A DNA stretch of 64,000 nt, from positions 36,481,001-36,545,000 of the forward strand of contig NC_068560.1 of NCBI RefSeq assembly GCF_022201045.2. Direction: 5' to 3'. The DNA is from Citrus sinensis (Eukaryota > Streptophyta > Magnoliopsida > Sapindales > Rutaceae). Positions within the stretch are counted from its first letter, which is position 1. Each line of letters begins with the position of its first letter. A program made the translations under genes and the position numbers. The notes beneath the pieces were generated by a model, which saw only the letters and a program-made list of their open reading frames with translations, was not told the origin of the DNA and did not search any database. Below, piece by piece: positions 3,643 through 53,462 of the stretch.

Positions 3643-4786
3643 TCATGACGTCCGACTATTACTCTTTAATTTTTTTCCTTCTTATATTTCGAGAATTTGA
3701 AATAAGCTGTGCTGTTGTTGTGTCTCGCGCTATGTATACATTCAGTATTACGGTGACCGGCCACTGGTCAGCCGTCTATATAACTCGCAATTGAAAAAAT
3801 TTTAGTGAGTCAACAATTAAAAATAAATTAATATAAGTAAACAATAAGAAAACAGGCTGCAGTTAATCATTGAAGCAGTAATAAAATAAACAATTAAAAA
3901 ATAAAAAAATAAAAAGCACAGGAAAAATCTGAGGCCTGTTTAGTAGCAGTCTCTTTAAAACAAGTTTACCATATACTACGGTGTTTTAGGTTCGTTGGTA
4001 GCTGTTTTTTATGATACAACCGGAATGAATTATTTGTCAAGCACTCACGAATAATTTTGACGAACACAAACAACGCAAAATCTCAATAAAAAACAGAATG
4101 TCAGAGAAGTAAAAAAAATTTAAGTGCTCTATGTGTTTTTTGTATTTATTGTGTGTATAAAACAGAAGAGAAAGACTGTCTTTTTATATACATGAGGGTA
4201 TGTAACTGTTAATTTGAATATTTGAATTAATTTGGCACTTGTTATGCCCAACTAATGAAGAATGAGGTTGCATGAAGTTTCCTACGCACAGTTGATTTTC
4301 AGTTTCTGCACTGTATTTACACGTGTATTATGAATTGTACTTCTTTTTACTATTAGCATAATCGATTAATTTTAGAATAAATTAGAGGTAATATAACTAA
4401 TTAATGTATATATGACATGTATAACTAAATTTAATATAACCTTTATTTGCTTGGAGGTTTTCTAAAATAAATACACATATGTCATATTATTATTTACTTG
4501 TTGTATAACTGACATATTGCTTCTGATTTATTCTATAATTTCTTGTCGGTGACTTTTTTTATATTATAGCTAAGCTTAATTAAGCTACAAGTGTCCCCTC
4601 CTTTAATTTGTAATAAAACACCATTTGCATGCATGGTTTGTAATCTCACTTTGTTTATTTGTCAAATATAAGTTTTTTTCGTTTCTTTCACCGGTATGCA
4701 ATGAACAAACTTCCACCATGATACATTTAAGTTTATCTAATCAAATTTAAATAACTATTGTCATAACCCGTATCCTCAATAAACAC
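3643..4786. other. Intergenic, 3' side of UGT to hAT copy 1
   Basis: It contains the UGT 3' UTR and AT-rich sequence. I see no coding signature. The 8 bases at 4779-4786 (ATAAACAC) are the left target duplication of the next element. Confidence 0.6.
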
Positions 4787-5785
4787 TAGGGATGGCAATG
4801 GGGAGGGGAGGGGAGGGGACCGATCTCCCCGTACCCATCCCCGATATTTTGCGTATGTCCCCGTCCCCTCCCCGTCCCCGTCAGAATTACTTGAGAGAAT
4901 CCCCATCCCCTCCCCGAATAATAACAGGGGATCCCCGAGGGTCCCCGATCCCCGAATAACTAATACATTTTTTTTTCAATTTTGAGTTAATCATATTAAA
5001 ATAAAAAATTCAAATAAAAGTAAAGTTCAAAATATATCTTACATTAATATATATTACAAAAGTCACATACATTAAATTAGTAAGTAACGCAACATGCAAG
5101 GAATACAAAATTCTTTTACAAACTATCATAAACAAATTAATAGTTTAATACAGAATTGTTACAAATAAAATCGAATTTAGATTCAAAATTAACTTTTTCA
5201 ATGGTGGCGTGGGCACTTTATAAATGTGGATTATTCCTTTTACAACACAATAGTTAAATCGGAGCAAATCAAAAGCAAATATTAGATTAGATTAGATTAG
5301 ATTAGATATTAAAATTGTGATTCGCTGTGGGCAATTATAACATCTAAAAATAAATAAAAAATAGATTTAAGTTTAAAATATTTAAAGAATATTAAAATTA
5401 AAAAAAATGTTTGGCTAATAGAATCTACTCGATCTTTTTAATGTCCTAAATAAAAATTTAGAACTTTAATTAGTTAATTAGGCCTAAAAGTTTAATAGTA
5501 TAAATATTTCGATATTTTTTATTTTTACCAATATTTATAATTTTATTATTTATTTACTAGTAATTTTAAAAAATTAAAATAAAATTAAAAATTAAAATGG
5601 GGAAATGGGTAGGGGATGGGGATTCCACCTCATCCCCGTCCCCTCCCCGAATAAGAAATTGGGTAAAAAAATTTCCCCACCCCCTCCCCGAATAAGAAAT
5701 TGGGTATGAAATTATCCCCATACCCTCCCCGAATGGGGAAAATCCCCGAGGGTACCCGTCCCCGTGGGGATTTTTGCCATCCCTA
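4787..5785 (+). mobile_element. Non-autonomous hAT-type DNA transposon, copy 1
   Basis: A 999-bp element starts TAGGGATGGCAA and ends TTGCCATCCCTA, a perfect 12-bp inverted repeat of hAT type. It is flanked by a perfect 8-bp target duplication ATAAACAC (4779-4786 and 5786-5793). Both ends are packed with GGGG/CCCC runs (CCCCGTCCCC, CCCCTCCCCG), while the core is very AT-rich and has a short (AGATT)n run near 5285-5306. There is no transposase frame, so it depends on an autonomous hAT elsewhere. Two further copies lie at 26998-28003 (opposite orientation) and 47674-48677. Confidence 0.93.
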
Positions 5786-5793
5786 ATAAACAC

Positions 5794-12291: not shown

Positions 12292-14256
12292 ATGGAGTCC
12301 GAGCTGAAAGACCTTAATTCAAAGCAACTCAAGTCGACGGCTTCCTCCGACGATGGCGGCTCAGCGAAAGACGACCGGCCGCTTCTCAAACCGGACGCAG
12401 CTGAGAACATTCAGGAATTGGAGAAGAAATTCGCTCCGTACGTGCGCAACGACGTGTATGGCACCATGGGCCGCGGCGAACTACCATTGGCGGAGAAGTT
12501 TCTCATTGGTATCGCCATGGTCACGCTGCTTCCAATACGCGTCGTTTTGGCGATGACTGTATTGGTTATTTATTACTTGATTTGTCGCGTCTGCACGCTC
12601 TTCTCTGCGCCGAATCGAGGCGAGGACGAGCAGGAGGATTACGCGCACATGGGCGGCTGGAGAAGGTCCGTTATTGTAGTCAGTGGCAGATTTTTGTCCA
12701 GAGTCATGCTTTCTGTGCTTGGCTTCTATTGGATTACCGAAACGTTTCGGATTCTAGATGTGCAAGAAAAGTCTGAGGTTATATTCATTTTGACGTCGAA
12801 CTTTTTTTTTTTTTAAATTAAGAGTTTAATAGTAGTTTATTAGAGTATTGGTTTATTATACAGAACGAGGCCAAAAATCAATCTAAAGATGAAGATGAAG
12901 CTAAAGATCAAGATGAAGAATCTGGAAGGCCCGGGGCAATAATATCTAATCATGTATCATATTTGGATATTTTGTATCACATGTCTTCTTCTTTTCCAAG
13001 CTTTGTTGCCAAGGTTAGTTAACTTAACAATCTTGAGGTTATGTTAGTATTAGGTTGGTGCATCCACTGACTTGTTTCTGTTTGTATTTTGTCAATTTGT
13101 TTCATTGTCTATAAAGAGATCGGTTGCTAAGCTTCCCCTCGTTGGTCTCATCAGGTTCGTTCACTTTATACTAACTTTCTCAAATTTCATTCATAATTGA
13201 GAATTAACTTATTTCATATTCTGAAAATTGCCATTTTTTTTGGGGAAGTTAGTTACAGTATTTGAGGATTCACATTTTATTTTGTACCTTAATCTTAATC
13301 GTTAAGGGGAAAGATAATACTTTGATTGTTGTTTTTGTTGTAAAACGTATTGAATTCTTTTTCTTTCCGCCCCTAGTTGTATTTGTATCTACAAAATGTG
13401 GGAGGAGATTAAATTTGTTTGACTTGTTTTTGCAGCAAGTGCCTTGGTTGTGTCTATGTTCAGCGGGAGTCTAAGTCATCTGATTTCAAGGGTGTTTCAG
13501 GTAGATGTTCCCCCTCCTCCCTCCCCCCTCTCCCCCTCTCTCTCCCCCCCCCCCCCCCCCCCCCCCCCCTCCCCCCCCCCCCCCTCCCCCCCCCCCCCCC
13601 CCAACGAGGCCAAAAATCAATCTAAAGATGAAGATGAAGCTAAAGATCAAGATGAAGAATCTGGAAGGCCCGGGGCAATAATATCTAATCATGTATCATA
13701 TTTGGATATTTTGTATCACATGTCTTCTTCTTTTCCAAGCTTTGTTGCCAAGGTTAGTTAACTTAACAATCTTGAGGTTATGTTAGTATTAGGTTGGTGC
13801 ATCCACTGACTTGTTTCTGTTTGTATTTTGTCAATTTGTTTCATTGTCTATAAAGAGATCGGTTGCTAAGCTTCCCCTCGTTGGTCTCATCAGGTTCGTT
13901 CACTTTATACTAACTTTCTCAAATTTCATTCATAATTGAGAATTAACTTATTTCATATTCTGAAAATTGCCATTTTTTTTGGGGAAGTTAGTTACAGTAT
14001 TTGAGGATTCACATTTTATTTTGTACCTTAATCTTAATCGTTAAGGGGAAAGATAATACTTTGATTGTTGTTTTTGTTGTAAAACGTATTGAATTCTTTT
14101 TCTTTCCGCCCCTAGTTGTATTTGTATCTACAAAATGTGGGAGGAGATTAAATTTGTTTGACTTGTTTTTGCAGCAAGTGCCTTGGTTGTGTCTATGTTC
14201 AGCGGGAGTCTAAGTCATCTGATTTCAAGGGTGTTTCAGGTAGATGTTCCCCCCCC

Positions 14257-14322
<66 letters not shown>

Positions 14323-16985
14323 CCCCCTCCCCCCCCCCCCCCCCCCTCTTTTGGTCAAACTGCATTTGTTGCCATGTCTCTTAGTGTTTGATCTAGTGTT
14401 GGAAAGATTAAAGAACCAGGTTTAGCTCACACCAAGCATGGTTTCCATATGACCCCGTAGGCTGTCAACCTTGTGTACTGTTCCAGACTATTGTAGGGCA
14501 GAAAAGGAAGCTCGCTTCTGGAGCATGGAATCTCGTTTTAGCTTCATCATTCAAACTAAATCAGAACATCATTTGTAAATTACAGGACAAATTATGCTCA
14601 CCTGTCTTGGCCGTGTCATACTTTTCTCCCCCATTACAGTGCCCTTGCTATAAACGATCAAGTGTTCCAAAAGCCATGTGTCTATAGCCCACAGCTTCCT
14701 TTAATTGTCTATGCTTCTCGGCTCTTCAAAGAAACATGCATTGGTCCCTTGTAGAAATGGCCTAAAGACAAAGTCACCTTTTGAGCGAAATTATTTTAAC
14801 AACCACTGAATATCTGTCCTTTGCTGGCAGGTGTTGTGACTGAAAGAGTTCGAGAAGCTCATCGGGATAAATCTGCTCCAATGATGATGCTTTTTCCAGG
14901 TTAGTATTTCTGGATCTTGTTTATGTATCATAGATTGCTATGTCAATCTGATTATAAACAAAAGTGTTATAAGGATTACCCCTGAACTGGCAATCAGATA
15001 TTATGTGTATTACTTGCATTGCTCGCATGGCACATTTTTCATTTTGTGATAAATAAGTGATTTTAGAAAACTAGGATTTTATGTGTGGCTTTGTATGATT
15101 CAAGGTATGGTTGGAGGGTTTACCTGCAAATTACTTTATTTTCTTTTCCTTTAAATTTACAAATCCATAGCTAATGCTGGATTCTTGAACCACATGATTT
15201 TAAATTTCTGGAATTGAATCGATAAAGCTACGAGAACTGATAATCCCTATGATGATATCTTCTAAAGTTGACATGCATGTAAATTCCCGGCTTAGTAACA
15301 ATTGCCGATTTCATGTTCATCTTCAATTTCATTGCAGAAGGTACAACTACAAATGGTGATTATCTCCTTCCATTCAAGACTGGTGCATTTTTAGCAAGAG
15401 CTCCAGTGCTCCCCGTTATTCTTAGGTATCCTTATCAGAGATTCAGCCCTGCCTGGGATTCAATATCTGGGGTAATTCTCCTCAAACAATTTCATACAAT
15501 GAAAGCTGGTTTGTTCCTTTTGACTTTTGGACACTTAAGAGTTGAAATGGTGGATGCAAGTTACCAAATATGGTTTGGCTTCACTTTGTTTTACAGAACC
15601 ATCAGCGATACACATTAATATTTCAAGGTTTGGTCATCTAATCGTTCCTTGGCATATGGGACCATCTGTACCTGATTGATAGGGTACTGCCAGTAGAATT
15701 ATTAACTTAGGAATTGATTTTAGATTTTGCATGATACAAGTTTCACCAGTTTGAGGGAGATTTGATTTTTGAAGACAGTTTGAACAATGCTGTATAATGC
15801 CATAACCAATACTGAACACAGAACATTCTTTTTATTCAAACAAAATTTTCTCTCCCTTTCTCTCACCATTTTCTTTTTCTGTAAATTTGAAGAGATTATT
15901 CTTCTGGTGCTGATGATAAGATTTGTGGCATCAGTCTGTGAAAACTCCACCTGTATTCTTGGGCTTAATTATTCATCCTGCATTGAGATGTTCGGACTAT
16001 AAAAAAGTTGGTGGTTTTGAAACATGAAAAGCTGACTATTTTGGGGTTGCTACATTCATTCTTGTTCTTCTTAATGACAAAGGCATATAATATAAAGAAT
16101 CTGGTGTTGCTGTGTATTGATCTGTTAATTGCTCATGTATTAACAGTGTCAGGATAATTTGATATATTTCCGTCACATCCTTTTAATTTTTCTCTTAATG
16201 TCAATGTGATCTTTCCATTTGCAGGCACGTCATGTTTTTTTTCTTCTCTGTCAATTTGTAAATCACATAGAAGTGACAAGCTTACCTGTCTACCACCCCT
16301 CGCAGCAAGAGAAGGATGATCCCAAACTATATGCTGAAAACGTTCGAAGGTTGATGGCTAGTGAGGTATGGATTTCGTCCTGCACAAAAGCTGAACTTTT
16401 GACTTCAAACTGAATTTTAAAGGTCATTCCATGATGACCGCTACAAAGGCCAATGTGTCAAAGCCAATAACTTTGTTGCCTTGAAAAACTTAAATGGGAA
16501 CCTGTGATTTGATTTTATTGTTGTCTGTTCAGGCTTTGTTGGGACATATCCATCCAAAGGATTAAAATTGTAAATGTATATCAATGGTTGAAATCTGTTG
16601 ATATTCTGGTAAAATGAGCAAAAAGATATTCGAAAGAGCATCTGGATTAGGTGTTGACAAACCGGTGATGTAGGAAGTATAGCCATGTTAATGGTTATAT
16701 GATAGTGTCCCAGTTAGTCTCTCATCTATTGAAGGAAAAATTGTTCTGGTAGAAGCAAGTTGATGTTGATGCTTAATCTTTTACTTGAATTATGGTCTGC
16801 ATGGTTAATATTGCCACTAGAGGTTGGACTGCCATTTGTATCAACATGCATTTGTTTCTGCTTCTGTTTTTGTGCAGAGAAATTTGACAGTGTCAGATAT
16901 TGGACTTGCTGAGAAGCGAATATATCATGCTGCTCTCAATGGTAATAATAGCCTGCCTAGTGTTTTGCATCAGAAAGACGATTGA
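12292..16985 (+). CDS. LPEAT1: Lysophospholipid acyltransferase LPEAT1 (contains an internal exon duplication)
   Basis: ER-membrane acyltransferase of the PlsC/LPAAT family that re-acylates lysophosphatidylethanolamine and related lysolipids. Exons: 12292-12777, 12864-13013, 13117-13154, 13436-13500, 14831-14899, 15338-15471, 16225-16365, 16878-16985. These keep phase throughout and give 396 aa, near the Arabidopsis length. A long hydrophobic segment lies at about residues 70-98. The catalytic H(X)4D is H192-D197 in SNHVSYLD; VYVQRE at 231-236 is motif II; FPEGTTTNGD at 268-277 is motif III. There is no EF-hand extension, which separates it from LPEAT2. Odd point: exons 2-4 occur a second time at 13603-13752, 13856-13893 and 14175-14239. 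The second exon 2 lacks its AG acceptor because poly-C replaces the intron end, so it can be skipped and the normal mRNA can still form. Confidence 0.92.
13508..13602 (+). repeat. Poly-C / CCCCT low-complexity tract 1
   Basis: About 95 bases almost wholly C with scattered T, lying in LPEAT1 between the exon 4 donor and the duplicated exon 2. The other strand is a G-run able to form quadruplexes. Confidence 0.9.
14247..14346 (+). repeat. Poly-C low-complexity tract 2
   Basis: About 100 bases almost wholly C, with few T or G, after the second exon 4 copy. It is purer in C than tract 1 and is followed by unique intron sequence (CTCTTTTGGTCAAACTGC). Confidence 0.9.
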
Positions 16986-25397: not shown

Positions 25398-28300
25398 TCA
25401 CAGCGAACCAAGTGAGTTGAAATGAGTCCATGCCTCCTGTATGCCAGTAGATAAACTTTGTTAGGTCTGCTTAAACTCACAACTATATCAGAAACAAATT
25501 TGTCTTGCCATGGAGATGTTTCACTAGCCACTCCTCGTGGATAACTTAGCAGCTAAAGATTTTTTTTTTTAAACACTCAGATGTTATTTGCAACAAATAA
25601 CTATGATCTGTTTTTCATTCCATTGCTCCAAAAAAATGAGAGATATTATAAAGCAGCCAAATGATCAGAGAGTTCGGGTTGAAGTGGACATCTAGCTGAT
25701 CATCCCATGTTCATCAGTTCCTCATAAAAGAATTTGCTTGCCGATTGATCAGAAATAGTGTACAATCATAAAGAAGCTTCCCATTTCCAAAATCACATGA
25801 AACGTAATTTCACGTCATGAATATCAGAGGTTGAAATTAAATATGGATGCAGGGTACTTAGAAAGACAATCGTCAGGCTAACAATTTCATCTCTTATCAG
25901 GCTGAGAAGCATGAAGAGATCTTCTAATCGCGAGACTAAGTTGGCAGAGCCAGCATGCAAAGGGGTGCACTGCCCAGTTATGGAAATAACTACTCTGCAG
26001 TATATAACTAAATCTCCCTAGCAAGAAAATAAACATACGTCAATCCATTACCTGCAAAATATCGAAAACCTTTTCTGCAATGTATGTTTGTTGACAAGTT
26101 GCACCCTTTTGCTGCAGCTTATCGGGGTGTAGACAGAGTAAAGCTTTTTGATAAGATCTTTTCACTGCATTTCCCTCAATTATGTCAACAAGAGGAACAG
26201 GCTTCCATCCACTCGCAGGCCATAGAATCTGCATTTTTGGCCAAAATTAGTTCCAAGAAATCAAAGAAAGTGAAAAGGAATGTGGCTTAAGACTCCGGAG
26301 AGTAAAACCTTACAACATCCAGTTTCCAAGGATATAACTAAAAGTCATCAATCAGATAACCTACACCTAAAGTCATGCTAATTGCACACAACAAAGCGTC
26401 ATGGTTCAAGTTTACAAGTTATGACATAAGAGATATTTATTGACGCCAACAAATAAGAAGGTTAGAGAAACTAGACATAAACTAGAAGCACACCAATTCA
26501 AACGAGGTCAAGTCCTTTTATTGCCATTAACATAGTATATCCAGTATATGTCTCAAAGTACAACAAGAAACAAAGAGGTCTCCAAGAAGAAGAAAAAAGT
26601 GCTCAGAACTGAATCCATCCATACGCTAAACTCACATATTGTAGAGTTGACAGCAGTGAGCGTATGTTTCCTTCCTTTCCATTTGACCATTTTCGTATTT
26701 GAACATCAATTGCCTGCACCATCTGAAGTTTCAAAATTACTGTTCTACAAGAAGTTGTAAGCAACATGTTTACAGTGCATGTACTCTATATCACCTGGAA
26801 CTCTTGAGGATCATTGCCAAGTTTTCGTAGTTTGTTGTCATCTTTTGTTACCTGATTTACCTGTCACATAAGCCCAAGTGCGCCAACTTCTCAGAAAATG
26901 CAATTTATAACTAGATATTATACATGTGGAACATAATGCCCTTACATTCAAATGTAAGCATTCTTAGATATAAACCTTAATCTTATCGGATTGGATTTAG
27001 GGATGGCAAAAATCCCCACGGGGACGGGTACCCTCGGGGATTTTCCCCATTCGGGGAGGGTATGGGGATAATTTCATACCCAATTTCTTATTCGGGGAGG
27101 GGACGGGGAAATTTTTTTACCCAATTTCTTATTCGGGGAGGGGACGGGGATGAGGTGGAATCCCCATCCCCTACCCATTTCCCCATTTTAATTTTTAATT
27201 TAATTTTAATTTTTTAAAATTACTAGTAAATAAATTATAAAATTTAAATTATAAAATTATAAATATTGGTAAAAATAAAAAATATCAAAATATTTATATT
27301 ATTAAACTTTTAGGCCTAATTAGCTAATTAAAGTTCTAAATTTTTATTTAGGACATTAAAAAGACTGAGTAGATTTTATTAGCCAAATTTTTTTTAATTT
27401 TGATATTCTTTAAATATTTTAAACTTAAATCTATTTTTTATTTAATTTTAGATGTTATAATTGCCCACAGCGAATCACAATTTTAATATCTAATCTAATC
27501 TAATCTAATATTTACTTTTGATTTGCTCCGATTTAACTATTGTGTTGTAAAGGGAATAGTCCACATTTATAAAGTGCCCACGCCACCATTGAAAAAGTTA
27601 ATTTTGAATCTAAATTTGATTTTATTTGTAACAATTTTGTATTAGACTATTAATTTGTTCATGATAGTTTGTAAAATAAGTTTGTATCTCTTGTATGTTG
27701 CGTTACTTACTAATTTAATGTATGTGACTTTTGTAATAGATATTAATGTAAGATATATTTCGAACTTTACTTTTATTTGAATTTTTTATTTTAATATGAT
27801 TAACTCAAAATCGAAAAAAAAATGTATTAGTTAATCGGGGATCGGGGACCCTCGGGGATCCCCTGTTATTATTCGGGGAGGGGATGGGGATTCTCTCAAG
27901 TAATTCTGACGGGGACGGAGAGGGGATGGGGACATACGTAAAATATCGGGGATGGGTACGGGGAGATCGGTCCCCTCCCCTCCCCTCCCCATTGCCATCC
28001 CTAATTGGATTCATGTGTATGAGTTAAATAACTTAGCATCGACATTTCTCTTCTATATGGCAAATGATCAAGTAGGTAATAAGTGGAAAAAATATATATA
28101 TAGAATCGTTTTCTTCTGGGATAAATCACAAACCAGAGAGTTTCCTTGGAAGGACTTATCTATATCGCCAGTTTCCTTTGAGCCATTACCTCCTGATTCT
28201 GGAAAAAGTACATGTATAATCATGATCAAGTACCAAATGAAAAAGTTAAATTGTATGTTAAACAAGCTGTGGTCAGAGGGTCTGATGGCAAAATAGTGAT

Positions 28301-40273: not shown

Positions 40274-41959
40274 TTTACTCTCTTAGACAAAACAGTTTTG
40301 ATTCAAACTGTTTATTACAGAGAACAACACAGCTTCTAAACAAAATTTTCATAATTCTTACAACATATGTGCCTAAACTAAAAGCACCAGAAGCACAGTT
40401 TCTCCTCTACCTTTTACATATTACTATAAGGTTTCAGATACCTGAAAACAAGAACGAACAATAAATGAACTGAAGCCAAAAAGATAAATAAATTTAATCT
40501 GTTTAAAAAAATAAAATATAAAATCACCTTATCTGATCAATATATTTGTATTTAAGACTAACAAAGAAAAATCGATAAACGAGATAAAAGAAAAAAAATA
40601 GGAATATCATCACCTTGGAGAAACGAATTCAAGAGCTCAATCAAACAGAACGCAGAGTTCAATCAGATGCGATTCCTGAAATTAAATTATAAATAATAAA
40701 TAAACAAACAAGCCACAAAATCTTGAAAGCGGTAGATACGACACGAGCCCTCCGGCTACTTCTCCCCTGATTTAGTAGCGGTCGACTGATCGGTTAATAA
40801 ATGACAGAATCCGGAATGTTCGTACGTTCGGGATGAAACCCTAAATTTACAGAAAGTGACAACTTAGTTAAGGCTCAGGTTTTTACTTTGGACTTCTGGA
40901 TTAGGGATGGTCACGCTTGCAGGGCATATTTTACCTCTTGGACTATTTTGACACCGACTACACGGAACAACTCACGTGCTTTTTGGAGTTTACTGAGGGC
41001 ATTTTCGTAACTCTGGCTGCTTAGCCACGCGAATCGTTTGGTTTGTGGTGTGATGTCGTCATCTTTTTCCTCCGTAGTTTGGTTTCCTGTTTCGTCCAAC
41101 TTGGTGGGAGAAATTTGTCATTTGCTAAACGTGCGATGCGTAGTTCATATATTTTTGGCTAGACCTCTGAGTTTTGCTTGTTTGTCTGAATTAACACTTT
41201 TTATTATTTTCCATCTATTTATTGTCCACTTAATAATAGTGGCAACATTCAGGATCTAAGATTTAAATCGTACAAACTTCACTAATTCAGACCTTATCCA
41301 ATAACTTGGTTCACAAATTGTTTGAAAAGGATATACCCAATATTCTATGGATTTATAAATCTCGTCTTATATATCATACAATAACCTTATTAATAACTAG
41401 ACGGATACATATTTATTTTACGCATGTTAACATAACAATTAGTTACTTTTTAAACAAGTTGCCACTGTGGGTCATGATCGAGGCACGAAAAAATAAAAGG
41501 GAAATGGCTCGTGAAAAAAAAAAAAAAAAATTGGGGCTAATTGCGACTGCTCACACTGATCTTTTTACTTTTAGTTGAATCTTTCATCTCAAAGTCTGCT
41601 CCATGTTTGTTCCAATTAGACACCAAAACAATTTAACGCTGATCTTCATTATCTAATGAAGTTCCAGACTTCGGTACATTCACTCTGGTGCATTAGAAAC
41701 TACAACAATAGACGATCTAATGAAGTTCCATTGCATTCAAAACTACAACAATAGACAGCCGTCAGATTTCGTTTGTGTACGGTGGTAAGACAACAACATT
41801 TTACATTTATTTATTTTTTCTTTTGACCAAGTATTGTAGATTCATACTCCATTCTTTCTCTGGCCTGTCAATTCCGGGTCCATATATAAACTCTTGAAAC
41901 TCAATCCATGAAAGCTGAATCGTCCAGGGCCGATGAAATCTATGCAAGCCGATAAATTT
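40274..41959. other. Intergenic: PP2C 5' region to P450 3' end
   Basis: Left part is PP2C 5' UTR and promoter. A 62-codon open frame (40911-41099, reverse) is listed separately. A duplicated phrase ATCTAATGAAGTTCCA occurs at about 41651 and 41715. No other gene signature. Confidence 0.45.
40911..41099 (-). CDS. Small open frame, possible short protein, unrecognised
   Basis: 62 codons from ATG to stop. The first third is acidic and polar (MDETGNQTTEEKDDD); the rest could form an amphipathic helix (ENALSKLQKARELFRVVGVK). I do not recognise a family. It lies about 640 bp upstream of the PP2C start, on the same strand. It could equally be a chance frame, or part of an unannotated transcript. Confidence 0.2.
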   Translation of the reverse strand: MDETGNQTTEEKDDDITPQTKRFAWLSSQSYENALSKLQKARELFRVVGVKIVQEVKYALQA

Positions 41960-44900
41960 TCAATTGTGAATCCTGCTAAACAGGATGTGGGCACCATGTT
42001 GAGGCTGCATGCTTATAAACAGCATTGGAGCATGAACATAACTTGGCGACAAAAAGAAATTAAATCTTCGGATAATAATAGCCAGAACAACTTTGGCCTC
42101 AACCATGGCTAAATTTTGGCCTACGCAGACTCTGGGGCCCAAGCCAAATGGGAAAAATGAAGCCAAGTGCTTTCGAGACTCGTTGAACCTCAGTGGATTG
42201 AATTCATTAGCATCTTCTCCCCACAGATCAGTGTCGTGATGTACTGCAGTCAATGCTATATAGAGTTGCGTACCGGCAGGAACGTCAAGGTTCCCTAGCT
42301 TTACCCCTCTAGAAGCTTGCCTCATCAACATTACAGCAGGAGGGTAAAGTCGAAGTGTTTCATTCAGTATCATGTTCACCTAGGTAACCAAAGATCAAGC
42401 AGTGATAAGGAAATAGCTTTATAAAAGAAAAAAACATTATATTCTCTAGAATGCCTTATAATTGAACAAGTGCAAGCCATTCAACGTTGTTGTATCCTCT
42501 AGTTTACTTTCTTTTGCACTATTACGATCATTATGTTATTTTTCTACTTCTCATATCCTTAACTTTCCATGCCTAGCTGCTAGCTAATTCTCTAATAAAG
42601 ATTCAACTCAGAGCATGGCCCATACCTATGTACTAGAATGCCTACCGGATTTTCTCTGTGATTCCAAAAGTCTAGTGCAATAAGTTCTCTCAAGTCTCAG
42701 GTAAATGAAACTCTACTTTGAACTATTGTTGCCTCAGCAGATAAGAAGTAAACTTACTATCTTCAGGTCACTTAATTTCTCCGCAAGTCGTAGGTCATTG
42801 TCTCCGCAAACCTGAAATACTTCTTCCCGTGCCTTGATTTGCCATTCTTGATGCATTGCTAGAAGTACAAGTGCCCAAGTCAAAAGATTGGCAGTTGTTT
42901 CCTTTCCAGCAAAGTAGAAGGTCTTGCATTCATCTATAATTTCTTCCACATCCAATCTCTCCTCTTGACCATCATGATTTTTACATGATGACATTAAAAG
43001 ACTAAGCAGATTTCTTGAACTTTCTCTTGTTTTGCCATTATTCTTGATCAGCATCCGTATTGATTCGCGAGTTTCTGATTCTAATCTCTGCCTCTCTCTA
43101 TTTTTCTTGGTGGGTAAGAACCTTAGTAAATAAAGGCAAAAGTGTCATAGAAAATGCTCGGGCTAAGTAATCAAGCAAATTAAGAACATGAACCTTATGC
43201 GTGATTCCAAGTGATGGCATTAGAATTTTGAAGTTGATTCAGAGAGATGAACAAAAGAGTTTCAAACCTAATGACATGTTCAAAGCATATTGTGATAAAA
43301 ACAAAAGTTACCTGAACCCTGGAATGTAGACGTTTCTTATTGCTTGAGAGAAGAGGTGCATCTGCTGTTCTTGCAAAATAAAAATACGCATGCCTTCTTC
43401 AAAACTACTTCCAAAAGCTGTTCGGGATATAATGTCTGCTGAGAGGTCATGAAGCACTTTATGCACATCAATTTCAAATTCATCTCTCCCTCCTCTAATT
43501 TCTTCCCAATTCTCAAACATCTTCGTGGTACTAGCCACAATATCTGGCACCCAGCCCTATTCAATACAGTTCAATCGGTTGTTAGAACTGACTCCCTCCC
43601 AAGAAAATGTGAAGCATTATCTTATTAACTTTTAGATGAATATTATAATTACATTGTTATATATTTGATTTGTATGTCAAGTGATATGCAGATAAAATAA
43701 TCGATAATTGTTACAAAAATAACATATTAATTAATCATAGTAATAAGAACCAGTTGGATACTTTTGATTCTCAAGTGGCTGTTAGTAAGAGTTGATTTTA
43801 ATCTATGGATATAAGGGCTCATTTGGAATTATTTTTAGGGGACTCAAAAGTGATTTTGAAAAATTAAAAGTTAATTTTAGTGTTTAGTAAATTTTTTCAG
43901 AAATTACTTTTAATAAAATCACCTCATTTTACTGCAGATTTTGAAAAACAGAAAAAAGAAATAGCTTTTCATAATCAAATTTTAAGAATCATATATATAT
44001 ATATATATATATATCAAAAGTATCCTTATTAATTAAGAAATAAAATCATTAACTTTAAAGGAAATTATTACTTTTACCAATTATATTGAGATAACAAAAT
44101 TAATAATATATAATATTTAGTTTAATTATCAATTATTATATGTACACAACAAGAATATTTTATATACAAGTCTATAAATGTTTAAATAAATTTTATTCAA
44201 CATTAGGTTTAATTATGTCTAATTCAGTAATTTATATTTTTATAATAATTTAATAATAAAATTTACCAAACACATACGACTGATTTTAAAACTCACAGCA
44301 CTTTTAAAAATAAATTTTATCAAAAGTTTATTTAATTCTTTTAACAGCCAATTATTTCTACTGCACGGCTTAATTATTTTAAAAGTTACAGTATTACCGA
44401 AATTGCCCTAAGAGATGTGTATGAACTTATACCCAGGATGCTCATAAAACTTTTATTCCCTCATGTTCTAATGCTGTTGACTCTCAACTTCAATCTTGAG
44501 TACCAAGCCAAGGTATCATTTTCTCACGACAATTCTATTAGTGACAGAGATTCATTGGAAAGACCAGTTAGTTATCACAAAATTTTAGCAAAAACAGTTG
44601 CGGAAAATATAAGAAAAAAGGACTCCAGAAACAACCAATCGTCACTCCAGGGCGACATAAGCTTCCAGGCTTCCAGCGTCTCCAAATGAGAATTAGCTGC
44701 TTTTTATTCATAGCAGCTTGTGGCGTCGCTTAAATTTGATATTAGTTTATCGTGTTGGTCTCCACTACGATTCAGTTCATTTATAGTTTTCTCTATTGAT
44801 GCTTTTGATCTTATTTTAATTTGATCTATTTAGGATTTAAGCCTTTTTGTCTACCCCCATTATATTACTTTCTAATTTTTTTTAATTTAAGCTTTCTTTA

Positions 44901-45617
44901 CGGAGGTTTATTTCAAAAAAGAGATACATATTAATTATGAATAATTAGAATTAACTTATTAAATATGAATAATTAAGTTACTTAAAGTTAAACAGAACAC
45001 ATAAATACATAATGATAGGTATTACGTAACACAAATACAAACTATATACGTCGGGGACTTGTTGGTTGTTACTGCGAAAAATTAATAAAAGCGCATACAA
45101 AATTAAAAATAAAAACTATTGCTAAAAGGAAGGGTTGTGTGGTCACCTTTACTCGTTCCATGTTAAAGGCTTGGTTCGAGATCCTTCTATGAATCGCCCA
45201 TTTATCACCGGTAAGCCCAACAAGTCCTTGCCCAAACAGTTGCCTTGACAACGGGTTAAACCCAATCTTTTCAAATGATCCACTCGTGTCCATTAGGACC
45301 TCCTTAATCATATCCGGGTCAGATATAGCAAGCCTGGGCTTTGACCCGAACCAATAGAGAAAAGTTTTCCCATACATGCGTGACCACTCGTGGTACAATG
45401 GAGCTGTGCGGTGAAGGATGTCGTGGTGAATTGGAGATATCGGTTTTGACTGTGCTTCTATGAATAGACGGCGGATCTCTGCTGAGTTTCCTGTGATCAA
45501 GCGGTAGCCTGGGCCACCTACGCCTTGCTCTTTGAAGTGCCGTTGGATTCGATGTGGGACCCATATGAACGAGTAAACGAATTTTAGAAGAGATGTTATA
45601 ATTACAATGAAGATCAC

Positions 45618-45650
<33 letters not shown>

Positions 45651-45656
45651 GGACAT
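41960..45656 (-). CDS. Cytochrome P450, CYP72 clan, CYP749A-like (tandem copy A)
   Basis: ER-anchored haem monooxygenase; substrate unknown. Exons in gene order: 45147-45656, 43313(43312)-43556, 42758-43121, 41960-42379; the four-exon plan and phases equal those of copy B and give 512 aa. The N-terminal anchor is a run of Leu ([16 protein letters not shown]) coded by a CTT repeat. Motifs: [12 protein letters not shown] (C helix), I-helix AGKETT (323-328), K-helix ETLR (380-383), FNPLRF, and the haem loop [12 protein letters not shown] with C458. The text [26 protein letters not shown]-type and YVHAPM...[10 protein letters not shown] is close to CYP734/CYP749 proteins of the CYP72 clan; CYP749A is my best guess. 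Intron 1 (1.6 kb) holds a Harbinger-type MITE. Confidence 0.9.
43815..44408 (+). mobile_element. PIF/Harbinger-like MITE (GGGCTCATTTGG family), copy 1
   Basis: A 594-bp AT-rich element inside intron 1 of P450 copy A. It starts GGGCTCATTTGGAATTA and ends with the inverted counterpart (GGGCAATTTCGGTAAT on the other strand). It is flanked by TAA on both sides (43812-43814, 44409-44411), the 3-bp duplication typical of Harbinger elements. The interior contains an (AT)n run at about 43990-44013. A second, reversed copy lies at about 45860-47267. Confidence 0.7.
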
Positions 45657-47568: not shown

Positions 47569-47673
47569 ACAAATTCCTATATTAACAGCCACGCTTTGAG
47601 AATTGTCAGATTTAAAGACATTAATCCAACGGATGTAAAGGCGTAGAACCAAAGAAGGAAGTGGGGTAAAAAC

Positions 47674-48677
47674 TAGGGATGGCAATGGGGAGGGGAGGGG
47701 AGGGGACCGATCTCCCCGTACCCATCCCTGATATTTTACGTATGTCCCCGTCCCCGTCAAAATTACTTGAGAGAATCCTCATCCCCTCTCCGAATAATAA
47801 CAGGGGATCCCCGAGGGTCCCCGATCCCCGAATAACTAATACATTTTTTTTTCAATTTTGAGTTAATCATATTAAAATAAAAAATTCAAATAAAAGTAAA
47901 GTTCGAAATATATCTTACATTAATATCTATTACAAAAGTCACATACATTAAATTAGTAAGTAACGCAACATGCAAGGAATACAAACTTCTTTTACAAAAC
48001 TATCATGAACAAATTAATAGTTTAATACAAAATTGTTACAAATAAAATCGAATTTAGATTCAAAATTAACTTTTTCAATGGTGGCGTGGGCACTTTATAA
48101 ATGTGGACTATTCCCTTTACAACATGATAGTTAAATCGGAGTAAATCAAAAACAAATATTAGATTAGATTAGATTAGATTAGATATTAAAATTATAATTC
48201 GTTGTGGGCAATTATAACATCTAAAAATAAATAAAAAATAGATTTAAGTTTAAAATATTTAAAGAATATTAAAATTAAAAAAAAATGTTTGGCTAATAGA
48301 ATCTACTCGGTCTTTTTAATGTCCTAAATAAAAATTTAGAATTTTAATTAGTTAATTAAGCCTAAAAGTTTAATAATATAAATATTTTGATATTTTTTAT
48401 TTTTACCAATATTTATAATTTTATAATTTAAATTTTATTATTTATTTACTAGTAATTTTAAAAAATTAAAATAAAATTAAAAATTAAAATGGGGAAATGG
48501 GTAGGGGATGGGGATTCCACCTCATTCTCATCCCCTCCCCGAATAAGAAATTGGGTAAAAAAATTTCCCCGTCCCCTCCCCGAATAAGAAATTGGGTATG
48601 AAATTATCCCCATACCCTCCCCGAATGGAGAAAATCCCCGAAAGTACCCGTCCCCGTGGGAATTTTTGCTATCCCTA
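47674..48677 (+). mobile_element. Non-autonomous hAT-type DNA transposon, copy 3
   Basis: A 1004-bp element, same orientation as copy 1. The left end is TAGGGATGGCAA; the right end has one change (TTGCTATCCCTA). The 8-bp target duplication GTAAAAAC is perfect (47666-47673 and 48678-48685). Compared with copy 1 it has scattered substitutions and a short deletion of one CCCCTCCCCGT unit near the left end. Confidence 0.92.
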
Positions 48678-48685
48678 GTAAAAAC

Positions 48686-50625
48686 CTGCTAGTAAAACAA
48701 CATCATTTGGAAAACACGTGCCTATTTTGGTTTTATTAGTACCATACATTTGGTCTAAGTCTAACCCTCTGGGCTTCTACTGTTCTATAACTTACTAAAA
48801 ATAATTGCGAATAAACCAAGGGTAGTACGTTGGATAAAATTTTAAAAAACTGTCAATAATTACTTTTATTTCATTTTTACATGTGGAATTTTATATCTCA
48901 GCCCCTATAGTACTACTGATAATGACAAGATTATTTTGTGCGAATTATTTAGATTACAAACCCAAGTATCTTACGCATATAACAGTGATTTTATTAGTAG
49001 AAATTGATTCGAAAATTGAGTGCTACAATATTAGTACTAAGACATAATTTTCGTAGTCAAAGAATCATTATTGACTCGTGTATTTTATACCAGTATTAAG
49101 AACAATAAATTTATACGAGACACATTAGATAATGAAATTGTCTTAAATATATAGGTGTATTACTCTTATTAATCGAGATTGATTTCAAAGGTAAAAAGAT
49201 TAACTTAAACTTGTCATTGTAGCATTAATAACAAAAGAAATGTATGGTGTGATACATTAAACAATATAAGTGTCTTATACATACCTCAACATTCTTACAA
49301 GGAGAAGTTGATTTCAATTGTGAAAAAATTGATTATGAGTACTATTACCTAATTTTCATTAATAGTACGGGGGACTGTATTCTATATATGACTTACAAGG
49401 AGTATTTCATTTTTAATAGATAATACAACACCTAGGTCATAGGCTACCAGCCTAGGTTTGATAGACAATATAAAAGGAAAGGATTGTATTAATTTGCGGG
49501 ATTACTATTAATATTATAGCCCCATTGCTAATAAGTTTCGAATTACTTGTCAAATAATTAAATTTAATTCAAAGTTGTTAAGATAAATTATCTCGTGTAG
49601 GGGTGGGTAAAAAAATCCATGCGATTTTGGGTGGATTGATAAAATTCTTTCAACTGATCAAATGAGTAAATTTTTACCAACCTACAATATTTGCGAATTG
49701 GGTCGGGTATGAAAATTGTAATCCATCCCAGCCCATCCCGCAAACCCCCACAGTTAACGATTTGTTCAAATAATGATATTAAATTATGATATAGTATTAG
49801 ATTAAAATTAAAAACGTGGGTGATTAATGTTTAACGAGGCTTTGAACTTTTGGATTTGTTTTAGAATTTTATGTTAGTAGTGCTGTGGACTATGAATTAT
49901 TATTTTATTTTTAGTCATTTCAAGTATTTAATTAATTTTTAGCTTTTTTAATTTTAAAATATTACCCAAAAAAACTGAAAAAAAAAAAAGGTCTTTAGGA
50001 TGATACCAAACCAACTCAATGTGCACTTATGTAGTTTGGATTAGGTTGAGTTAAGTTTCTCTAAACCCGTGCCTTGTCGTGCCCATATTTAATTTACGGT
50101 TATCACTCAGTTGTAATAAAAAGGTTTTTATTTCAGAAATTATATTTTTGTTACTCTTTCAAATCTTGACACACGCAATCTTTGTAGATCGTTCCTCGAA
50201 ACGTAATTATCAATCATATCAACTAAGTAAAGTGGACCAAATGCAATTCAACTAGCTACCGACCAATTAAGTTGGTAATTAAGTTGTACGATTTTAACAG
50301 TAACGAGAAAGTGACATAAGCTATGACATCACGTATGTCGTTGCAGGTATATGTTTATTATCATTAGAACGACTGACTGAGCTGGTGTGCATATGTTAAA
50401 TCGTGATAGGCTAAATGAATGTAATCATAACAAGTTGAGATTCATTGATAAGGCAAACGTTAAGGATAGAGATATTTACAACTTAAGAATTCCCCATAAC
50501 AACAGACCTATCATCTACGCGTGTGTGAATTGTGTAGTGCTGTTTTGATGAGAAATTAAGGCTGTCGATTGCATTACTCTAATGCTTTTCAAATACAAAT
50601 ACACCAAATATTGCCCGGGAGCTCT
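48686..50625. other. Intergenic between the P450 copies
   Basis: AT-rich with no coding signature. At 49599 TAGGGGTGGGTAAAAAAATC resembles the end of another hAT-type element with GGGTCGGGT-like subterminal sequence to about 49740, but I found no matching right end. Copy B promoter is not here (it lies beyond 53462). Confidence 0.45.
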
Positions 50626-53462
50626 TCAACTATGAACCCTGCGAAAGAGGATTTGCGCACCATATTGAGGCTGCGTTGTTATGAACATCGTGGGAGCATG
50701 AACATAGGTTGGCGACAACACAAAAGTGTATAATCGGATGATAACAGCTAGAACAAGTTTTGCCTCAGCCATTGCTAAGTTTTGACCTACACAGATTTTG
50801 GGGCCCAAGCCAAATGGAAAATACGAGGCTAAGTGCTTTCGAGACTCGTTGAACCTCACCGGATTGAATTCATTTGCATTTTCTCCCCAGAGATCAGTGT
50901 CGTGATGCACAGCAGTCAATGCCAAATACAATTGTGTACCGGCAGGAACATCAATGTCTCCTAACTTTATCCTTTGAGATGTTTTCCGCATCAAATGTAC
51001 AGTTGGCGGGTAAAGTCGAAGTGTTTCGCTGAGTATCATGTTCACCTGTTGTCAAAATTTCAAGCAGTAATGCTTAAGAATGTCAGAGAGCTGGAAACTC
51101 TATACACTTCACTATTTTAGGCTCAGCATATAAGTTTCGAAATATTAAACTCACAAGCTTAAGGTCGCTTAGATTGTCTGCTACTGGTAGCTCATTGTCT
51201 CCGCAGACACGAGCCACTTCTTCCCGTGCCTTGATCTGCCATTCTTGATGCAATGCAAGAAGTACAAGTGCCCAAGTCAACACATTAGCAGTTGTTTCCT
51301 TTCCAGCGAAGTAAAAGGTCTTGCATTCATCTATAATTTCTTCCACCTCTAACTTCTCTTCTTGACCATCCTGATTTTTATACGATGACATAAAAAGACT
51401 AAGTAAATTTCTTGAATCTCCTCTTGATTTGGCATTTTTCTCAATCAGCATTCGAATTGATTTGCGAGCTTCTGACTCTAGTCTCCACCTTTCTCTGTTT
51501 TGCTTGGTAGGCAAGAACCTGTGTATATGAACACAATAAGCTCGGTCTAAGGAATCAAGAAAATAACTCCCACAACTCACCTAAAGCCTGGAAGGTAGAC
51601 ACTTCTTGCAGCTTGAGCGTACAGTTCCATTTGCTGTTCTTGTAACATAAAAATACGGTTGCCTTCTTCGAAACTGCTCCCGAAAGCTGTTCTGGAAATA
51701 ATGTCTGCAGAGAGGTCATGAAGTTGTTTATGAACATCAATCTCAAATTCATTTCTCCCTCCTCTTGTTTCCTCCCATTTCTCAAGCATCTGCTTACAAC
51801 TAGCCACAATTTCGGGAACCCAACCCTGATCAATACAAATTTGATGTTAGAAGCGCTTGGGCACACAGCATCTAGCGCGAAAATTTTGAATCAAATTAGC
51901 GTCAACATTTCTCTGCAACAAGGGTTAAACGTGAGATCTCCTAATTTCTTTACAATAAAGCTAAACACATGGTGACTTGTGTTTTAACAATTCATCAAAT
52001 GCAGAAGAGCGCTCAAAGCTTATTTTTGCACTAAATGGACCAAACCTCAATGCTGAATTGAATCTCTGTTTCATCCTAGAAAGCATTTTTTTTCCCTCTT
52101 AAAGTTGTAAATTGATTCATGTGTCGGCCTGAAAAGTTAAATATAACTGTGTTTCGTGTTTCATGTTAGTATTGTGCCATGTTAAGCTTTGAAAACATTT
52201 TATTATATATATATATATATATATATATAATCTTGAAATAATTCAAATTATTGAAATATCCCTCAATTCAATGGCTACGCAATTGTCATAAAATTAGTAT
52301 TTTAGGAATTTGTAATCTTTAAATAAAAAAAAAATGGTAAATTTGCATGTGTTCGAATTAACAGTTTATTATTCTTTGTGATATTGTGCTTAGAAACGTG
52401 AGCACAACTCAAATCTATTGAGATATCCCACACTATTTTACATGATTTTAAACATGTCAAGTTAGTATTGTGCTGGTGCCAGCACGATCTTATACCTCCG
52501 CATTGTACTTTTATTTGCTAAATTAAAATGAATGTAAAACAAATTTGGGAAAATTATCTTCAGTACCTAAATTTTTCTTTTTATATCCAACTAACCAGTG
52601 AGCTGTTAGAATATGTAAAAGAATTATGTTAAAGGCTAGTTTGCCCTTTGAATAATTTCAATTGGTGCTCTCATTACGTATTGATAAAACTCATAGGCGA
52701 TTAGAAAGCAAAAGAAAAAGAAATCAATTAAAAATCCTGTTTAAATTATTAATTTTTTACTTAAGAGTTTATGATGGCTAAAATGATGAAATTGGGTTTG
52801 TGAAGTGATTAATTGATACAAAATGTAAAACCTAAATGACGCAGAGCCATTGCCAGAATTCTTTAATCACCATAGGAACATGATAATTTCCAGACAAGTT
52901 TTGTGGTGATTGCGGGATTAAAGAGTTTACGAACTCTTAAAAAAAAAATTAGAGCGGAGTGTTGTGTTGTCACCTTAACTCGTTCCATGGTAAAGGCCTG
53001 GTTCGCGATCCTCCTGTGAACAGCCCATTTGTGGCCAGTAAGCCCAGTGAGTCCTTGCCCAAATAGCTGCTTAGACAAGGGAGTAAACCCTATCTTTTCA
53101 AATGCTCCACCCGTATGCATGAAGGCTTCCTTAATCATATCCGGGTCAGATATAGCAAGCCTGGGAGTTGACCCGAACCAGTAGAGAAAAGTTTTCCCGT
53201 ACACACGCGACCACCGGTGGTAAAACGGAGCCGTACGGTGAAGGATGTCGTGGTCAACGGGAGAGATTGGCTTTGACAGCGCTTCTATGTGCATACGGCT
53301 GATCTCGGTCGAGTTTCCTGTGATCAAACGGTAGCCAGGGCCACTTATGCCTTGTCTCTGAAAGTGGCGTTGGATTCGATGTGGGATCCATATCGATGAA
53401 TGAATAACTTTTAGAAGGGATATAATAAGAATGAAGATCACAGTTACAATAAGAAGATGCAT
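50626..53462 (-). CDS. Cytochrome P450, CYP72 clan, CYP749A-like (tandem copy B)
   Basis: Paralogue of the P450 at 41960-45656, same strand, intron positions and phases. Exons in gene order: 52974-53462, 51581-51825, 51155-51518, 50626-51045, giving 505 aa. The anchor is [19 protein letters not shown], without the poly-Leu expansion of copy A. Motifs are intact: [28 protein letters not shown] and haem loop [12 protein letters not shown] with the Cys at about 451. Differences from copy A cluster in likely substrate-contact stretches (for example RNVYIPGFR versus RSVYLPGFR, and the region after ETLRLYPP). Intron 1 has a (TA)n run at about 52205-52229. Both copies look functional. Confidence 0.9.

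Follow-up and report, generated by a model that had tools for sequence, protein, structure and literature searches.

An exact repeat of exons 2–4 beside poly-C tracts in a sweet orange acyltransferase gene: false assembly duplication or young tandem duplication?

Does sweet orange carry exons 2, 3 and 4 of an acyltransferase gene twice, or does only its assembly? The question arises in the 64-kb stretch of DNA analysed here as a whole (the window), where these three exons occur in two successive units, each followed by a C-rich tract. The preliminary description of this DNA had offered two origins, a recent duplication by template switching and an assembly error; both are kept below, with the assembly error slightly the likelier.

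The acyltransferase gene and its direct repeat

With the first unit used, eight exons join to an open frame, and the resulting protein contains the Pfam Acyltransferase domain (PF01553, E 2e-18), which bears out the earlier gene reading. We call the gene LPEAT1-like, after the name given to it in the preliminary description, which agrees with the plant protein; sequence searches support the assignment at the domain level. Among the protein matches listed for the genome, 9 of 11 lie inside this gene and are 81–100% identical. The other two, on contig C3 (G000:C3:49401507-49401698 and G000:C3:50732088-50732279), are 1.33 Mb apart and have the same scores (44% identity, E 2.9e-11), a pattern that would suit a related gene duplicated on one chromosome, or placed twice. 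The terms 'lpeat' and 'acyltransferase' have 0 occurrences in the main text of the sweet orange assembly paper (PMC9832951). The features of the locus, in window coordinates, are:

12292..16985, + strand: acyltransferase gene with eight exons; open frame of 396 aa, AG/GT at each intron
12292-12777, 12864-13013, 13117-13154, 13436-13500, 14831-14899, 15338-15471, 16225-16365, 16878-16985, + strand: coding exons (unit 1 used)
12864..13514, + strand: repeat copy 1; begins at the first base of exon 2 and ends five C into the intron 4 tract; 651/651 bases as in copy 2
13508..13602, + strand: tract 1, 95 nt (82 C, 13 T), a C/T mixture on the left and C26-T-C14-T-C17 on the right; abuts copy 2
13602..13603, + strand: junction of tract 1 and copy 2; 0 nt microhomology, no base common to either side
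13603..14253, + strand: repeat copy 2, with exon 2 at 13603-13752, exon 3 at 13856-13893 and exon 4 at 14175-14239
14247..14346, + strand: tract 2, 100 nt (95 C, 4 T, 1 G), including 64 C in one uninterrupted run; followed by unique intron 4 (TCTTTTGG...)

Comparison of the window with itself revealed a direct repeat in which 12864-13514 and 13603-14253 are identical at 651/651 positions with an offset of 739, which confirms the duplication of exons 2–4 described at the outset. These 651 exact bases are not a chance match. Backward comparison of both copies extended the repeat leftward beyond 12864/13603 by 0 bases. The units stand head-to-tail, in the order exons 2–4, tract 1, exons 2–4, tract 2, and the unique part of intron 4 occurs only behind tract 2, the base order being TCTTTTGG after tract 2 and AACGAGG after tract 1. 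Further copies of the unit elsewhere were sought in the whole genome (299,734,781 bases in 11 contigs), and the DNA search lists these two places only. No N marks a gap anywhere in the 64-kb window, and no contig end is visible at the repeat.

The C-rich tract starts seven bases inside intron 4. About 95–100 bases of nearly pure C had been described at the end of each unit; the lengths hold, as does the purity of tract 2 and of the right-hand part of tract 1, but not that of the first ~36 bases of tract 1, which are a C/T mixture. T accounts for 11 of the first 40 bases of tract 1 and for 3 of the first 40 of tract 2, while the adjoining 651 bases are without any difference. The tracts can be aligned in one register with mostly T-to-C differences (9/72 sites, at which tract 1 has T and tract 2 has C), which is weak evidence in sequence so rich in C. 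Interruptions fall mostly on the left in tract 1 and on the right in tract 2, that is, on the sides adjoining the unique flanks, and two further T lie in the right-hand part of tract 1. The sequence of the donor tract gave 0 matches in prokaryote contigs and 0 in viral contigs.

Predicted splicing and reading frame with two units

Exon 2 of copy 2 starts directly after the last C of tract 1, and its normal AG acceptor is gone; the copy coordinates and exon borders agree with the earlier statement that the second unit begins at the first base of exon 2 and lacks this AG. Another AG lies six bases into this exon behind a pyrimidine tract, and tract 1 is without any A. With the acceptor lost and no A in tract 1 as branch point, exon 2 of copy 2 would be expected to be skipped in the mRNA. 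Exons 3 and 4 of copy 2 keep both AG and GT, because their flanks fall within the 651-base identity, just as had been proposed.

A normal reading frame with exons 3 and 4 taken from either unit, also proposed earlier, is possible on translation up to exon 5, the joins 1-2-3-4-5, 1-2-3-4b-5 and 1-2-3b-4b-5 (b denoting copy 2) all remaining open. Joins with additional exons shift the frame and reach a stop within about 25 codons: at residue 251 with extra exons 3+4 (103 nt), at residue 271 with extra exon 4 alone (65 nt), at residue 254 with extra exons 2+3+4 (253 nt), and likewise early with extra exon 3 (38 nt; join 1-2-3-3b-4b-5). A variant mRNA with exons 3–4 repeated, suggested before as a further product, would thus not be a usable one. 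Since extra exons 3 and/or 4 shift the frame, an allele that really carried both units would probably make less normal mRNA.

C runs across the genome

Searches of the genome found at least 450 C runs of at least 24, 115 of at least 30 and 10 sites with pure runs of 40 or more, among which the run of 64 at this locus is the longest. Run lengths decay nearly exponentially, and the number of runs of 64 or more expected from this decay is ~0.03. Stretches of 58 bases with at least 56 C were found at four places, two of them being tracts 1 and 2.

From the C runs of at least 24, the flanks of 44 other sites were surveyed for exact-word repeats (best two per site). These comprised the nine remaining sites with runs of at least 40 (40–52 long, ~4 kb of flank either way), the 20 that head the list for contig C1 (2.5 kb flanks) and 15 hand-chosen sites with runs of 30–38 (1.2 kb flanks); L057, which is among the four places richest in C, was examined with flanks of 1.2 kb. 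A tandem duplication bordered by a C run was found at 0/44. Repeats that the tract does not border lie near L009, L012, L015 (satellite-like), L028, L044 and L050; near L017, a repeat with a 190-bp offset lies 1.7 kb from the tract, and at L034 two copies 2.6 kb apart have the tract between them, at neither border. Within these 44 sites, therefore, the association of the tract with a duplication reflects neither an assembly fault common to C runs nor a common habit of the genome.

Two minor observations came from the same sites. L053 (G000:C2:2942200 region) has an interrupted C tract, in which two runs of at least 24 C start 38 bases apart with T/A interruptions, and shows no tandem duplication within 1.2 kb. 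Moreover, A-rich sequence tends to follow C runs on the same strand, at least 9 A occurring in the next 15 bases at 21/44 sites versus 2/44 for the preceding 15 (L009-L017, L025-L059).

Origin of the repeat and neighbouring sequences

What explains the repeat best, with a probability that we put at about one half, is a false 'homotype' tandem duplication made during long-read assembly. The gene in the plant would then probably carry exons 2–4 once, with a single long C/T-rich tract where intron 4 begins. Read correction or the joining of overlapping pieces would have failed there, in the most extreme C tract found in the assembly, about 740 bases of overlap would have been retained twice, and polishing would have produced a separate noisy consensus for each tract. 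The mismatch between the tracts counts in favour of such an error, since a young duplication, if real, should have carried the tract along with the 651 bases, and interruptions beside the unique flanks are as expected from a single tract split over two places; the two T on the right of tract 1 are not predicted by such a split and count against it.

The pure run of 64 C, far out in the genome distribution, also speaks for a false duplication, as does the damage that a real one would do to a gene with no other close copy among the matches listed. The assembly fits as well. It appears to be the sweet orange haplotype DVS_A, for which PMC9832951 gives PacBio continuous long reads and assembly by Canu with a 2-kb minimum overlap, some regions being redone with pb-falcon. 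The same PacBio reads served for three rounds of polishing, and the assembly section names no other reads. On the other side stand the window, which is without gap or N at any join, and the few, long contigs given for the DVS project (383, N50 15.4 Mb; PMC9832951), whose corrected reads, with an N50 of 42 kb, should span the 1.5-kb structure easily. The 44 other C runs, including nine of 40–52, are likewise without such an error.

Homotype false duplications of the Vertebrate Genomes Project (PMC8081667) resemble the present case in being exact repeats of a single-copy segment, similar to an exon duplication and beside a hard-to-read stretch. In the present case the consensus differs between the two tracts, though not over the 651 bases. 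The copies are identical rather than at allelic divergence (0/651 differences versus ~9.5 expected between haplotypes). Homotype duplications are often about as long as a read according to the same paper, whereas the 739 bases found here are much shorter and adjoin no visible contig end. If the duplication is false, the reference would encourage the annotation of phantom exons in a lipid-enzyme gene, and the site would be a compact test case for long C tracts upsetting long-read assembly.

Somewhat less than an even chance is given to a genuine tandem duplication of very recent date, on this haplotype, that arose from a break at the tract. The long G/C tract would have broken during replication, and the right-hand end would have used the sister chromatid as template, copying leftwards through the tract and exons 4, 3 and 2 as far as the start of exon 2; the copied end would then have been joined to the left side at its poly-C end. 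The head-to-tail layout, with one breakpoint at the tract edge and unique intron 4 only behind tract 2, is consistent with these steps, and the 0/651 differences limit divergence to <0.46% (95% upper bound). At a substitution rate of 2.2e-9 per site and year, such a duplication would be roughly one million years old or less. That the tracts differ while the 651 bases are identical speaks against it, although fast tract turnover could account for the differences; either the tract evolves far more quickly than the sequence around it, as long repeats can, or its consensus is noise. The 0/44 other C runs with such a duplication also weigh against it, whereas the 170 tandem duplications counted between the two DVS haplotypes in PMC9832951 weigh in its favour.

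Small tandem duplications in C. elegans helq-1 mutants are comparable to a real duplication. In PMC8654963 these range from ~100 bp to 10 kb with a median of ~1 kb and are attributed to end-joining of failed repair intermediates. The direct 739-bp unit is head-to-tail like them, falls within their size range near the median, and has one breakpoint at a tract that may be prone to break. Their junctions, however, are described as rich in microhomology, with occasional templated insertions, and the junction here has 0 common bases, an inserted extra C being indistinguishable from the tract; the host, moreover, is a plant without known helicase defect, and the duplication is a feature of the assembly. 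G-tract instability in C. elegans dog-1/FANCJ mutants is similar in that a long G/C homopolymer marks the breakpoint, but the dog-1 study (PMC4369104) reports no duplication near G4 sites and describes deletions beginning at the 5' end of C tracts, opposite the present breakpoint, where a duplication ends at the 3' end of the tract. A literature search for tandem duplications and genome instability in connection with G-quadruplex and poly-G sequences found 0 papers. If the duplication is real, the locus would be a clear case of tandem duplication produced by a homopolymer G/C tract, not of deletion as in worms, and would predict an allele with less normal mRNA.

A random breakpoint would coincide with an exon border, as the start of the second unit does, in ~0.6% of cases (7 exon borders in ~1,200 bases; counted post hoc).

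Two further accounts are far less probable. In a heterotype false duplication, the parental alleles (mandarin, pummelo) would have been set one after the other, and sweet orange is indeed highly heterozygous and its assembly phased (PMC9832951). From the DVS SNV count in the same paper, ~9.5 differences are expected in 651 bases, and the 0 observed (P ~8e-5) argues against two alleles end to end unless both parents are alike here; with this account largely refuted, surviving only in the case of such likeness, we consider it very improbable. Slighter still is the chance of an RNA-templated insertion, by which a partly spliced or back-spliced RNA starting at exon 2 would have been copied into DNA at a breaking poly-C tract. 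The left breakpoint at the first base of exon 2 would suit it, but introns 2 and 3 are kept in both copies, poly-A is absent, and the junction consists of intron 4 sequence plus a C tract instead of an exon–exon join. An allele of this origin, which we hold to be just as improbable, would have its left border set by a splice site and would give a functional mRNA only if the extra exons were skipped or exchanged. The retained introns 2 and 3 and the lack of poly-A dismiss an mRNA retrocopy.

Two other sets of similar sequences lie in the window. An element of ~1 kb occurs in three copies (4780-5793, 26997-28006, which is inverted, and 47667-48685) that are mostly 94–98% alike, with one stretch at 81%; it carries GGGGAGGGG/CCCCTCCCC repeats and a 41-nt minisatellite and looks like a recent mobile element. 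Two neighbouring genes on the minus strand, 41959-45656 and 50625-53462, are 83–85% alike in three 300-nt stretches 7.8–8.7 kb apart, and their translations look like cytochrome P450, judging from a heme-loop motif.
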